This document shows positions 44,641-54,128 of a stretch of 64,000 bases of DNA, piece after piece; within the stretch, counting starts at the first letter, position 1, and each line of letters starts with the position of its first letter. The position numbers and the translations under genes were made by a program. The DNA is from Paramacrobiotus metropolitanus. Lineage: Eukaryota > Tardigrada > Eutardigrada > Parachela > Macrobiotidae. The notes beneath the pieces were generated by a model. It was not told the origin of the DNA. It saw nothing but the letters and a program-made list of their open reading frames with translations, and did no database searches. Location of the stretch: NCBI RefSeq assembly GCF_019649055.1, contig NW_026570228.1:868001-932000 (forward strand), in the 5' to 3' direction.

Positions 44641-47600
44641 CTAAAGGTCGTTGTTGGCTGTACCAACGCTGGCGTCCATTCTCGACACGATCTGACTGAA
44701 CGATGGTCGATTGAGTGCGACAGTAATCCAGCAGTCGAGTACCAAACTGGATCTTTGGCCCAAAAATCGAAAATAATCGATCCATTATACGCTAACGCCG
44801 CCAGTTATCGTCTCTCTTTTAAACTTAGCAACTTACAGCCATTGTGGACAAATTGCCGGCAGTTGCAGACGATTGTCGTCGAGGAGGAACTGATGCAAGT
44901 GTTCATGATTTAGTCCTTGGGGAAACTGTTGAGAATACGGTGGTTGACCAAAGGTAAAGCATTCCCACACTACCACACCAAAAGACCAGACATCACTGCG
45001 ATCACTGTATCGGCCTTCCATTGGCACTAACGTCTCCGGAGCCATCCAGCCTAATGGCAGTTTCACCTGCCAGGTGAAAAGAAATAAATGTAAATGTCGC
45101 AACAACTAGAATTTATGGCTGCGAGCTTTTGCTCTTTAAAATATTTGGACTGTACCTTGGGCCGTTGCAGGACATACTGGCTGCTTGCTCTCGCCAAGCC
45201 AAAATCGCTTATTTTGGCAACAAGGTTGGAATCCAAGAGAATATTTCGCGCCGCAAGATCCCTGTGAATAATATCTCGGCTTGCCAGATATTTCATTCCT
45301 TCTGCTACTTGTACCACAAGATCAACCAAAACTTGGAGCTCGTTTACGGCTTCGGGATTCTCTCTGTTTGCCTTAACATTGCAGTAGTTGCTGGGATTTT
45401 GCAGGTAACTCAGTAGTGACCCGTTTTCACAATACTCCATTACAGTCAGTAAGCGTCCTAAAGAAGGAGCGCGCTATGAGACGCTATTATAATACAGGTG
45501 GCTGAGTTTTCATGAGACTAAGCGATTAAGAAAAGCTACTACCAACACCTCCTAATGACGTAACTAAAGTAAAATGTGAACATAACTCATTGTGCACCTT
45601 TTAAAACTACTCCAAGTAAGCAAACAACATTCTTATGGCGGCCCACGGTCATAAATGTTGCGATTTCCGCCAGGAAGCACCGTTCGTCTTCCGTCGTATG
45701 TGGTTCTTCCATGAATTTAACCGCAACAAGTGTAGACGTTTTAGTTTGGCTCAAGTCAGTCACGGGACTGATTGTGAACGCCAGCCGTGCCAAGCTAACA
45801 CGACAAAACCGGCTCTCTCCTAGAACTTCGTTTACTGAAGAAAAAGCAAGCGTTATGAATCCACGCCAAAATTTAAATCTAATTTGTTGGCCTTGCACTA
45901 TAAACAGTGATTCCCTAGAGGGTAATTACATAACGTTAGCGCAGTGCTTGGCATTTCAAACTCTTTAATTAAGTGATCCGGAATGCTAAGACGCGCTAAT
46001 CTATGGCTTGTTCCACCCTGTATTAAGAAATTATTATTAGCTGCAAAAACATCATCATCTTAAATTATTTAACATAATCCCTGCAACAAATCGTACCTGA
46101 CGCAGGCGTCGCCAATAATAAGACCATATAATTAGGATAGCGCACACGGCAGTTGCTCCAAATAAGTTGCCATAAAGTGCGCTCATTTGGATATGATAAC
46201 CTGTACGGGTGAATATGCTAGAACTTAGGTACTGTATATTTTGCCGCAAACACCAATCGTACCATGACTGCCGGCCGGTGGTGCTGTCAAGCCTGTAAAT
46301 AAATTACAAAGAAACAGTAAGTAAAAGTAAAACAAAACACAGGCCTGAAGAAGCTGGTAACCACAGTGCAGTTATTAGAGCCAGTGTTAGAAAAGTTGTG
46401 AGTACCGACATTGCCCTCCTGGAACTGAATATCGTCTAGTTCGATCGATGATTCGTCTTCGAAGAAGACCACTTTTAATGTTAACCAGAAAGACGGCGGA
46501 GGGTGCAACAGGTATATTGTGACATTCTCCCATTCGGTAAATTGATTTGGCCCATTTCTCCAGAGTGATCGCCTTTCTGAAGCGTTGATTGTGTGTAGTT
46601 CGAGTTCTAGTTCAATAACCTTTTGCGCGGTTCCTTTGTATCGAGCCTACAAAAACCGATAACAATTTCTCGCTCATAAACGGTTTTTACTCACAGTTAG
46701 GTACTTCTATAGGAGGAGTTATCAAGTTGACTCTAGGCACTCGAGCTAGGCTACCATAGCTCACAAGGCGCGTCATACTCGTACACCAATAAGGATAATA
46801 CCAAATTTTAAAGCGTTTGGCAAACATTATTAATGCTCTGTTGGTCACCTTAAAGAAGCACTGATCCTCATGGTGCAGTGGGCACCTCGTTATTGGACTG
46901 ATGATATATGTCATTGCCGATATCTCACCGACTTCTGTACACCGACTGAAGGCCACCAGCCCGTTGGACGAATTCGACGGCACAACGGCCCAGGTCATCT
47001 GACTATCTTTACGACCCACCCATCCGCATAAATCTCCACTGTCAAATGCACAGTTTAAAGCTCCAGTGTGGTTCGGGGCTACAGTTCAACCAAACACGCT
47101 GAACAAAAACTTGTTGGGCAAACCGCAGCATTTAACTTAATTCATACGAGATAAGTCAGGAACCGCCTCTGTGGCCGGTGGGTACGGCACTACATCCAGT
47201 GGCCAAAAAAATGTTGGTTCATGGCAGATCACGTTGCTCATTAACATCTCGCATTCATTAAAGAGCTCAATGTCATCCAGTGCCGCGACGTAGGTCTCAT
47301 CTCGAGCGGATATTTCAAACACGAGCTACAAAATCGTCGAGATTACTTGCGGGATATCATGTGTGGAACAAAATGGTTGGTGGTTACTTCTGACAGGTAA
47401 AAGAGATTGAGCATTACCTGAAAAGGCGCCTTAATGCATAGGTCTATTTGAACAGTTTGCCACAGCTTTGCCGACGGCTTAATGCCGCTGTCGAAATCCC
47501 TTGAATTCCACAAAGAAATATGAGCCGCCATGGTCGCAGCATATAACCGCAAGAACTGTAAGCCGGGCCCAAATATGAACACGGAAAAGCGCAATCTGGT

Positions 47601-53600: not shown

Positions 53601-54128
53601 GAATAAATGATTTGATTTTTTTAAAAGCTGCAGTCGCACAATGTTATGCCACCACAGATACTAACGTGCTGCCAAAATACTGCCTTTTTGTGAATTAGGA
53701 AGCAGCTTCATTACACGGTTCGGCACAAATGCATATTTCCGTGGCGCATTTACGGTTATTTTATCAAAGACAGGTCCAAAAACGTTTCTTTAATTTTGTT
53801 AAAATGCAATGCACAAGCTTTTCCCGAGAAGGCGCATCATTATATCTGTAGTTTAGAACCGCTCGTGAAGGGGCACTTCTGTTGATATTTAAGTGTCCAT
53901 AACGCGCTTACCATCATGCGATGATACATTCTGATAAAAATCGCTTTGCAGAATCGAACTGGCAGAAAATATCCAGGAAACGTAAGCATGACTGCTTTTC
54001 ACAGACCATCCGCTGCATAAACTGGCGTCGAAACCACAACTGAACTCACTAAGTGTTGCAGATGCTGGGATCACAAAACCGGATGCCAAGAGAATTGAAG
54101 GAAAAATCCAGTTTTTGGAGTGATTCAT
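44641..54128 (-). CDS. Receptor tyrosine kinase with seven MAM-like domains
   Basis: My model has 16 exons, all GT-AG and phase-compatible: 54128-53912, 53583-53206, 51460-50890, 50510-49689, 49606-49075, 48911-48803, 47836-47418, 47325-47148, 47078-46705, 46646-46426, 46292-46097, 46017-45930, 45834-45598, 45457-45156, 45066-44837, 44746-44641. They sum to 4,980 bases, about 1,659 residues. A signal peptide ([13 protein letters not shown]) precedes seven MAM starts: [67 protein letters not shown] and [15 protein letters not shown] ends include LDDIELF and ELDDIQ. The helix is [15 protein letters not shown]. The kinase has [33 protein letters not shown] and [12 protein letters not shown]. Its glycine loop is weak (LGESRFCRV). 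HRDLAARN points to a PDGFR/FGFR-like kinase rather than ALK. The donors of exons 9 and 10 are the least sure. The protein ends 14 residues after RPSF. Confidence 0.85.
48001..48140. repeat. Pure (TA)70 microsatellite
   Basis: Seventy uninterrupted TA units in intron 6 of the MAM kinase gene (48802-47837). The frames across it that give Tyr-Ile repeats are artefacts. A pure tract of this length is expected to be highly polymorphic and its assembled length is unreliable. Confidence 0.98.
48995..49052. repeat. 29-bp tandem duplication in kinase intron 5
   Basis: ACAATAGATAGCTGAGGTGA plus nine more bases occurs twice with a 29-bp period, directly beside the exon 5 donor at 49074. It does not alter the splice site. 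Confidence 0.85.
52012..52524. mobile_element. MITE in kinase intron 2, TA-flanked
   Basis: The left end CCGTACCTATCGAATTTGTG and the right end (reverse complement CCGTAATTATTAAATTTGTG) match with few differences. TA borders are at 52010-52011 and 52525-52526. The subterminal GGGG/CCTTATTT-type words recur inverted. It shares its terminal 17-base word with the element at 36.0 kb but has a different interior. It lies in the 1.7-kb intron 2 of the MAM kinase gene. Confidence 0.75.
52606..52745. repeat. Small inverted repeat in kinase intron 2
   Basis: ACTGTTGCTGTCACCCGCCTGG (about 52609) pairs imperfectly with CCAGCCGGGTGACGGCAGCTGTACAG (about 52721). A related CAGCCGGGTAACGGCAGC word occurs alone near 35853. 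It is probably a short MITE or its remnant. Confidence 0.5.

Follow-up and report, generated by a model that had tools for sequence, protein, structure and literature searches.

MAM domains occur on other single-pass signalling proteins and co-receptors, such as the receptor phosphatases RPTP mu and kappa and the neuropilins, where they serve adhesion or dimerisation. These proteins carry one MAM domain together with Ig and FN3 or CUB and F5/8 parts, and they have no kinase. Among invertebrate receptor tyrosine kinases (RTKs), the Venus kinase receptors have an ectodomain borrowed from another receptor class, namely, a Venus flytrap ectodomain joined to an INSR-like kinase. The RTK known for MAM domains is ALK, which has two of them and an LDLa domain, and a role in dimerisation is attributed to its MAM domains (PMC7851593). 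Here we describe a gene on the minus strand of a 64,000-nucleotide stretch of the genome of the tardigrade Paramacrobiotus metropolitanus (contig NW_026570228.1, C8:868001-932000; this whole stretch is hereafter the window). The gene is predicted to encode a single-pass RTK in which an ectodomain of seven MAM modules is joined to a kinase from the FGFR/VEGFR/PDGFR/RET/TIE group. It is one member of a multigene family; we put the probability of this reading, together with the mechanism proposed below, at roughly 0.8. A preliminary description of the window had named ALK, with two MAM domains and LDLa, as the known MAM-bearing RTK, in agreement with PMC7851593, and had proposed that the kinase may come from another RTK group with a MAM ectodomain acquired by shuffling. 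The genome searched comprised 169.8 Mb on 533 contigs. A tardigrade CAHS protein used as a query had 20 matches in it (the best at 65% identity over residues 32-218 and the next at 71% over residues 60-206), in keeping with a eutardigrade, as CAHS proteins are not known outside this group; a SAHS query gave five partial matches (best E value, 1.6e-9).

The spliced model contains 17 exons, where 16 were first described, and 16 introns instead of 15. It runs from an ATG at position 54128 to a stop codon ending at 44641 (4884 nucleotides, 1627 amino acids, a single terminal stop), each intron is of the GT-AG type, and no other stop interrupts the frame. Intron position and phase are common to at least one of seven paralogue models for 13 of the 16 introns, the exceptions being introns 9, 11, and 12. 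The predicted protein has the layout of an RTK, with a signal peptide, an ectodomain, one helix, and a cytoplasmic tyrosine kinase. The helix and signal peptide were recognized by hydropathy, being, respectively, the highest and second-highest peaks of the spliced protein. The order first described (signal peptide, seven MAM-like modules, one helix, and kinase) was thus recovered by the spliced model, Pfam, and hhalign. An earlier candidate for the helix, a frame-0 reading from position 46303, was rejected, as it has no in-phase splice, whereas exons 11, 12, and 13 splice in phase. The version with exons 11 to 13 is preferred because of this splicing and because its helix and juxtamembrane frames recur in the paralogues. 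A TA repeat of about 140 bases lies within intron 6 (window positions 48000 to 48140).

The whole protein was compared with Pfam at E values of up to 10, and matches were obtained to PK_Tyr_Ser-Thr (E 1e-69), Pkinase, and MAM (E 8.3e-30, 104.1 bits, six stretches at this lax limit); three further families matched weakly, at chance level. No match to LDLa, ALK-type glycine-rich, or Ig families was found in the same search. The ectodomain is 5.7% glycine and has no GGG run, consistent with the earlier statement that no LDLa or glycine-rich part is visible. The domain search proposed at that time was extended to the modules singly. Three of the seven (modules 1, 6, and 7) exceeded the curated MAM cutoff of 26.4 bits and modules 2 and 3 fell below it, while modules 4 and 5 gave no match to the Pfam MAM profile. 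The modules were also compared with one another by profile-profile alignment (hhalign), using profiles built from up to nine genes. The link between modules 3 and 2 reached about 95% over 26 columns, and that between modules 3 and 4 reached 94 to 95% over 67 columns. For module 5, the best links besides that to module 4 were 50 to 61% (module 7). In 24 control comparisons (3 against the kinase profile and 21 against reversed modules), the maximum was 2.65%. Since the links of modules 4 and 5 are far above these controls, we accept the predicted ectodomain as seven MAM-type modules, two of them (4 and 5) recognized by profile-profile comparison alone and module 5 being the least certain.

The kinase was compared with solved structures and with human references. 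Among the best 60 of 2490 structure matches (phmmer), an EGFR tandem construct had the highest summed score (212 bits, about 105 per copy), and the best relatives over the full domain were FGFR1 and FGFR2 at about 180 bits. BLAST scores against nine human references were 180 bits for FGFR1, 179 for FGFR2, 164 for VEGFR2, 150 for CSF1R, 147 for INSR, 146 for TIE2, 132 for RET, and 121 each for EGFR and ALK. A tree of 21 rows was then used, from which EGFR (on a long branch in a first tree of 24 rows), the genome's ABL, and the partial C118 kinase had been dropped; C85a, C85c, C85b, and C8b entered both trees as the C-lobe only, and C89 and C37 were without the P-loop part. The 12 tardigrade genes formed one clade (100/100) within FGFR, VEGFR, CSF1R, RET, and TIE2, and ALK, INSR, and the genome's own ROS were joined at 100/100 on the opposite side. 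The best tree placed the tardigrade clade with VEGFR2 and CSF1R at a support of 56/92 (not starred). In approximately unbiased (AU) tests, grouping the whole clade with FGFR was marginally rejected (p 0.03, a weak rejection), and grouping it with TIE2 was not rejected (p 0.25). Monophyly of the type A and type B kinases defined below gave a p value of 0.34, and grouping type A with the PGRP and LRR kinases gave 0.28. The predicted kinase is therefore a member of the FGFR/VEGFR/PDGFR/RET/TIE kinases and not of ALK, as had been suspected. The HRDLAARN loop on which that suspicion was partly based is present, but the loop alone tells little about the kinase group.

The gene is a member of a family of at least nine MAM-array kinase genes in this genome. 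Searches with the window protein (tblastn) against stretches of C8, C38, and C85 gave eight further colinear loci with array, helix, and kinase in order. Five genes (type A: the window gene, C38a, C38d, C85a, and C85c) have module 1, and in four (type B: C38b, C38c, C85b, and C8b) it was not seen. C38b and C38c have modules 2 to 7, whereas C85b and C8b show little of module 2; two of the type B genes are incomplete at the 5' end. The two types are arranged head to head on C8 and C85 and as an inverted A B / B A set on C38. C8b, the head-to-head neighbor of the window gene, extends past the window to C8:951022 or beyond; only the second half of its module 2 was found in the searches. An LTR (long terminal repeat) retroelement with gag-, pol-, and env-like frames was observed inside C8b, outside the window. 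A hydrophobic helix stands between the MAM array and the kinase in all nine genes, and in each of them the helix frame leads to a V codon (GTN), the outcome expected of a phase-0 GT donor. In the five type A genes the helix starts with G-N-x-x-G.

A query with module 4 found eight places, namely, the window gene, C8b, five on C38 and C85, and C75. Among the matches listed, MAM and kinase lie within 20 kb of each other on C8, C38, and C4, the kinase on C4 being upstream of the MAM array. The genome-wide MAM scan missed C85 altogether, although three of the nine genes are located there, indicating that such scans undercount; there may be other MAM kinases in the genome. Separately, 115 places genome-wide, including the receptor gene itself, match its 76-residue kinase exon at an E value of 0.001 or better.

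Kinases near those of types A and B were examined at four further places (C89, C63, C118, and C37). The spliced models of C89 and C63 combine an Amidase_2 (peptidoglycan recognition protein [PGRP]-type) domain with the kinase (33.5 and 32.9 bits, respectively; Pfam cutoff, 26), with an open frame containing a predicted helix between the two. The sole C118 fragment given to Pfam had no match. The C37 ectodomain resembles leucine-rich repeats (LRR) (LRR_8, 17.0 bits, below the cutoff of 27). When the genome was scanned for Amidase_2, a single place was returned and the PGRP kinases were not recovered; introns within the domain are the probable reason. In addition, C75 has a multi-MAM array in which 30 kb gave no match to the kinase profile. 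Its first run reads, 5' to 3', module 2 (73 bits), 3 (45 bits), 4 (80 bits), a weak 7 (12 bits), 6 (42 bits), and 7 (17 bits), and its second run reads module 2 (59 bits), 7 (31 bits, with module 3 second at 23 bits), and 4 (36 bits). Since C75 matches five receptor modules (2, 3, 4, 6, and 7) in receptor order, although with gaps and exceptions, a fusion that joined a MAM block to a kinase is likely and is the simplest reading. Alternatively, C75 may have lost a kinase. The PGRP and LRR-like ectodomains on the same kinase clade, together with the kinase-less array, support shuffling from both sides, in line with the proposal that the MAM ectodomain was acquired in this way.

In the mechanism that we propose, the MAM array would bind a partner, which could be located on an adjoining cell, in the matrix, or in the same membrane as the receptor. 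This binding would gather receptors, a role that has been ascribed to MAM domains in ALK and in receptor phosphatases. The dimerized kinase would then phosphorylate its single activation-loop tyrosine (SSQYVLQR) in trans. As the C terminus lies about 12 residues past the Pfam kinase match, output would go through a kinase-insert tyrosine or a partner receptor. The type B neighbors would be the likeliest partners of type A, given the neighboring genes and the complementary loss of motifs. The window gene keeps HRD, DFG, and VAVK with a degenerate glycine loop, and kinase activity itself is a prediction from these motifs.

Several observations weigh against this reading. Module 5 resembles MAM weakly, and AlphaFold models of modules 4 and 5, built from the window's own rows, were poor (mean predicted local distance difference test scores of 52.5 and 48.6) and were not used. 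Our gene finder used the window protein as a guide when it built the paralogue models, and the shared introns are thus not fully independent. At C75, the slot between modules 4 and 6 matches module 7 weakly (12.0 bits) and not module 5, and most other C75 stretches do not keep the receptor order. Adhesion and the pairing of types A and B are steps that we infer. Finally, of the three glycines of the glycine loop, two are missing from the window gene and all three from the four other type A genes; such degeneration may weaken ATP binding and make the kinase a poor enzyme.

The last point leads to the alternative that survives best, that type A serves chiefly as a pseudokinase or scaffold in which the MAM part recognizes a partner, the degenerate glycine loop leaves the kinase inactive, and catalysis comes from an active partner. 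All five type A genes have S-x-F-C in place of the usual G-x-F-G, whereas G-x-G-R-F-G is intact in all four type B genes, and A and B genes adjoin on C8, C38, and C85. The type B kinases have their own departures, as the activation-loop tyrosine is absent from all four, the catalytic loop is HGD in three and HRD in one, and DFG is NFG in one (C85b). However, the beta-3 lysine, the glutamate of the C-helix region (FLAE or FIAE), HRD, DFG, and one activation-loop tyrosine (YVLQR or YILQR) are kept in all five type A genes, and the kinase segment has the lowest proportion of nonsynonymous differences (pN) of eight segments in each of three type A pairs (0.18, 0.25, and 0.23). We consider a mainly noncatalytic type A possible but unlikely.

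It is very improbable that our splicing wrongly joined the gene of a secreted or membrane-bound MAM protein to an adjacent kinase gene. A kinase-less MAM array does exist in this genome (C75), but the order of array, helix, and kinase is kept on one strand at nine loci, and module 7, helix, and kinase are connected by introns 10 to 13 of 113, 62, 79, and 95 nucleotides, which hardly leave space for a second gene start. A split would also strip the array and helix of a cytoplasmic part and the kinase of its start. A family of decaying pseudogenes is slightly less probable still. C8b, with the first half of module 2 missing from the searches and a retroelement inside the gene, could be read in this way, but the window gene reads through 1627 codons without interruption and the type A modules are under purifying selection. 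Between C85a and C85c, pN was 0.18 to 0.43 and the proportion of synonymous differences (pS) was 0.58 to 0.89 across all eight segments (seven modules and kinase residues 1404 to 1619), and pN was also well under pS in every segment of the other two type A pairs. Synonymous sites were saturated in 19 of the 24 segment comparisons, and we therefore relied on pN versus pS. The spliced model, the helix order at nine loci, and these proportions led us to reject both the two-gene and the pseudogene readings.

The weakest alternative, a strongly diverged ALK/LTK receptor with a multiplied MAM part and lost LDLa and glycine-rich parts, draws on ALK being the RTK known for MAM domains (PMC7851593) and is largely refuted, as AU tests rejected type A with ALK (p 0.00014) and, marginally, the whole clade with ALK (p 0.042), ALK and EGFR had the lowest BLAST scores, no LDLa or ALK glycine-rich match was found in the Pfam search, and the kinase does not fall within ALK/LTK in the tree, of which LTK was not a row.

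A broader proposal can be offered tentatively, and we regard it as rather doubtful. Eutardigrades may have a recognition system built on one kinase of the FGFR or PDGF/VEGF-receptor-related (PVR) type with swapped ectodomains (MAM types A and B, PGRP, and LRR-like), in which A and B would form an obligate asymmetric pair with complementary kinase defects and PGRP members would couple the sensing of bacterial cell walls directly to tyrosine phosphorylation, in animals from which most components of Toll and Imd signalling are reported to be missing. Tardigrades were reported to have no homologues of intracellular Toll pathway parts and of Relish, and PGRP homologues were found in eutardigrades except one (PMC7056985). 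If the proposal is true, the PGRP kinase receptors of this lineage would be bacterial-sensing RTKs that give tardigrade PGRPs an output, and bacterial sensing in tardigrades would become directly testable.

Table 1. Predicted features of the MAM receptor gene and related loci (window positions unless a contig is named)
Feature	Position	Strand	Basis or remark
Whole gene, type A MAM receptor tyrosine kinase	44641..54128	-	Spliced open frame, shared intron positions
Exons 1-6	54128-53912, 53583-53206, 51460-50890, 50510-49689, 49606-49075, 48911-48803	-	
Exons 7-12	47836-47418, 47325-47148, 47078-46765, 46646-46406, 46292-46263, 46200-46097	-	
Exons 13-17	46017-45930, 45834-45598, 45457-45156, 45066-44837, 44752-44641	-	
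Signal peptide (about residues 1-24; cleavage point inferred)	54057..54128	-	Hydropathy, sequence
MAM module 1, exons 1-2, residues 28-197	53210..54047	-	Pfam 27.8 bits; not seen in four type B genes
MAM module 2, exon 3, residues 210-355	50991..51428	-	Pfam 17.9 bits; hhalign 98.4-98.6% with module 6
MAM module 3, exons 3-4, residues 368-510	50147..50954	-	Pfam 19.6 bits; hhalign
MAM module 4, exons 4-5, residues 535-682	49549..50074	-	hhalign 97.7-98.4% with module 2, 96.7-96.8% with module 6
MAM module 5 (most divergent), exons 5-6, residues 702-876	48804..49491	-	hhalign 88.9-92.7% with module 4
MAM module 6, exons 7-8, residues 886-1038	47260..47810	-	Pfam MAM 41.6 bits
MAM module 7, exons 9-10, residues 1082-1259	46410..47061	-	Pfam MAM 37.0 bits, two stretches
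Transmembrane helix, exon 12, about residues 1280-1300	46112..46174	-	Hydropathy maximum of spliced protein
Juxtamembrane exon 13	45930..46017	-	phmmer alignment to FGFR2 WEFPRDKLTL; similar frames in type A paralogues
Tyrosine kinase domain	44641..45933	-	Pfam PK_Tyr_Ser-Thr E 1e-69; motif positions
P-loop LGESRFCRV	45823-45797	-	
VAVK	45727	-	
HRDLAARN	45266-45243	-	
DFG	45206	-	
Activation-loop SSQYVLQR	45185-45162	-	
5' part of type B paralogue C8b (end of module 2, modules 3-5)	58223..64000	+	Open frames, tblastn
Type B kinases	C38:942300-943300, C38:937400-938700, C85:426400-427150, C8:949980-951060		
L015, PGRP and kinase	C89:304001-311000		Model exons 3563 to 6940; same strand
L018, PGRP and kinase	C63:788501-796000		Same strand
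L017, PGRP-like frames ahead of kinase	C118:279001-287000		Same strand
L016, kinase behind helix frame and LRR-like ectodomain	C37:1055901-1062900	-	
L026-L028, kinase-less multi-MAM array	C75:405001-435000	-	

Elsewhere in the window, nine GPCR (G protein-coupled receptor)-like single open frames are clustered between positions 2209 and 42371 on both strands; the three tested all match Pfam 7tm_1, and the remaining six were judged by eye. A plus-strand frame at positions 10260 to 10874 has a weak F-box match (18.3 bits; cutoff, 20.5).

Compared with the described systems, the predicted receptor resembles ALK/LTK in being a single-pass RTK with MAM in its ectodomain, although it has seven modules and ALK has two. 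It differs in that the LDLa and glycine-rich parts of ALK were not found and in that the ALK kinase is of the INSR/ROS/ALK group. With FGFR and PVR it has in common the kinase group, the juxtamembrane motif, and the kinase insert. However, the ectodomains of those receptors are mostly Ig-like, and no Ig family matched the window gene in the Pfam search. The HGDLA loop is reported to be typical of decapod PVRs (PMC11024359); it occurs in three of the four type B genes, whereas the window gene has HRDLA. The same study reports a crustacean FGFR2 with a cadherin ectodomain (PMC11024359), and ectodomain swaps on FGFR-type kinases thus have a precedent. A study of the holozoan tyrosine kinome covers the shuffling of RTK ectodomains, and a word search of it found none starting with MAM (PMC8662651). 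Among the matches listed from the open-licence literature, the titles and opening lines of abstracts gave no MAM-array receptor of the FGFR/PVR type and no PGRP kinase. The receptor described here would be a MAM-array RTK whose kinase is not that of ALK, and within a single animal genome the kinases of one lineage would carry at least three sorts of ectodomain.

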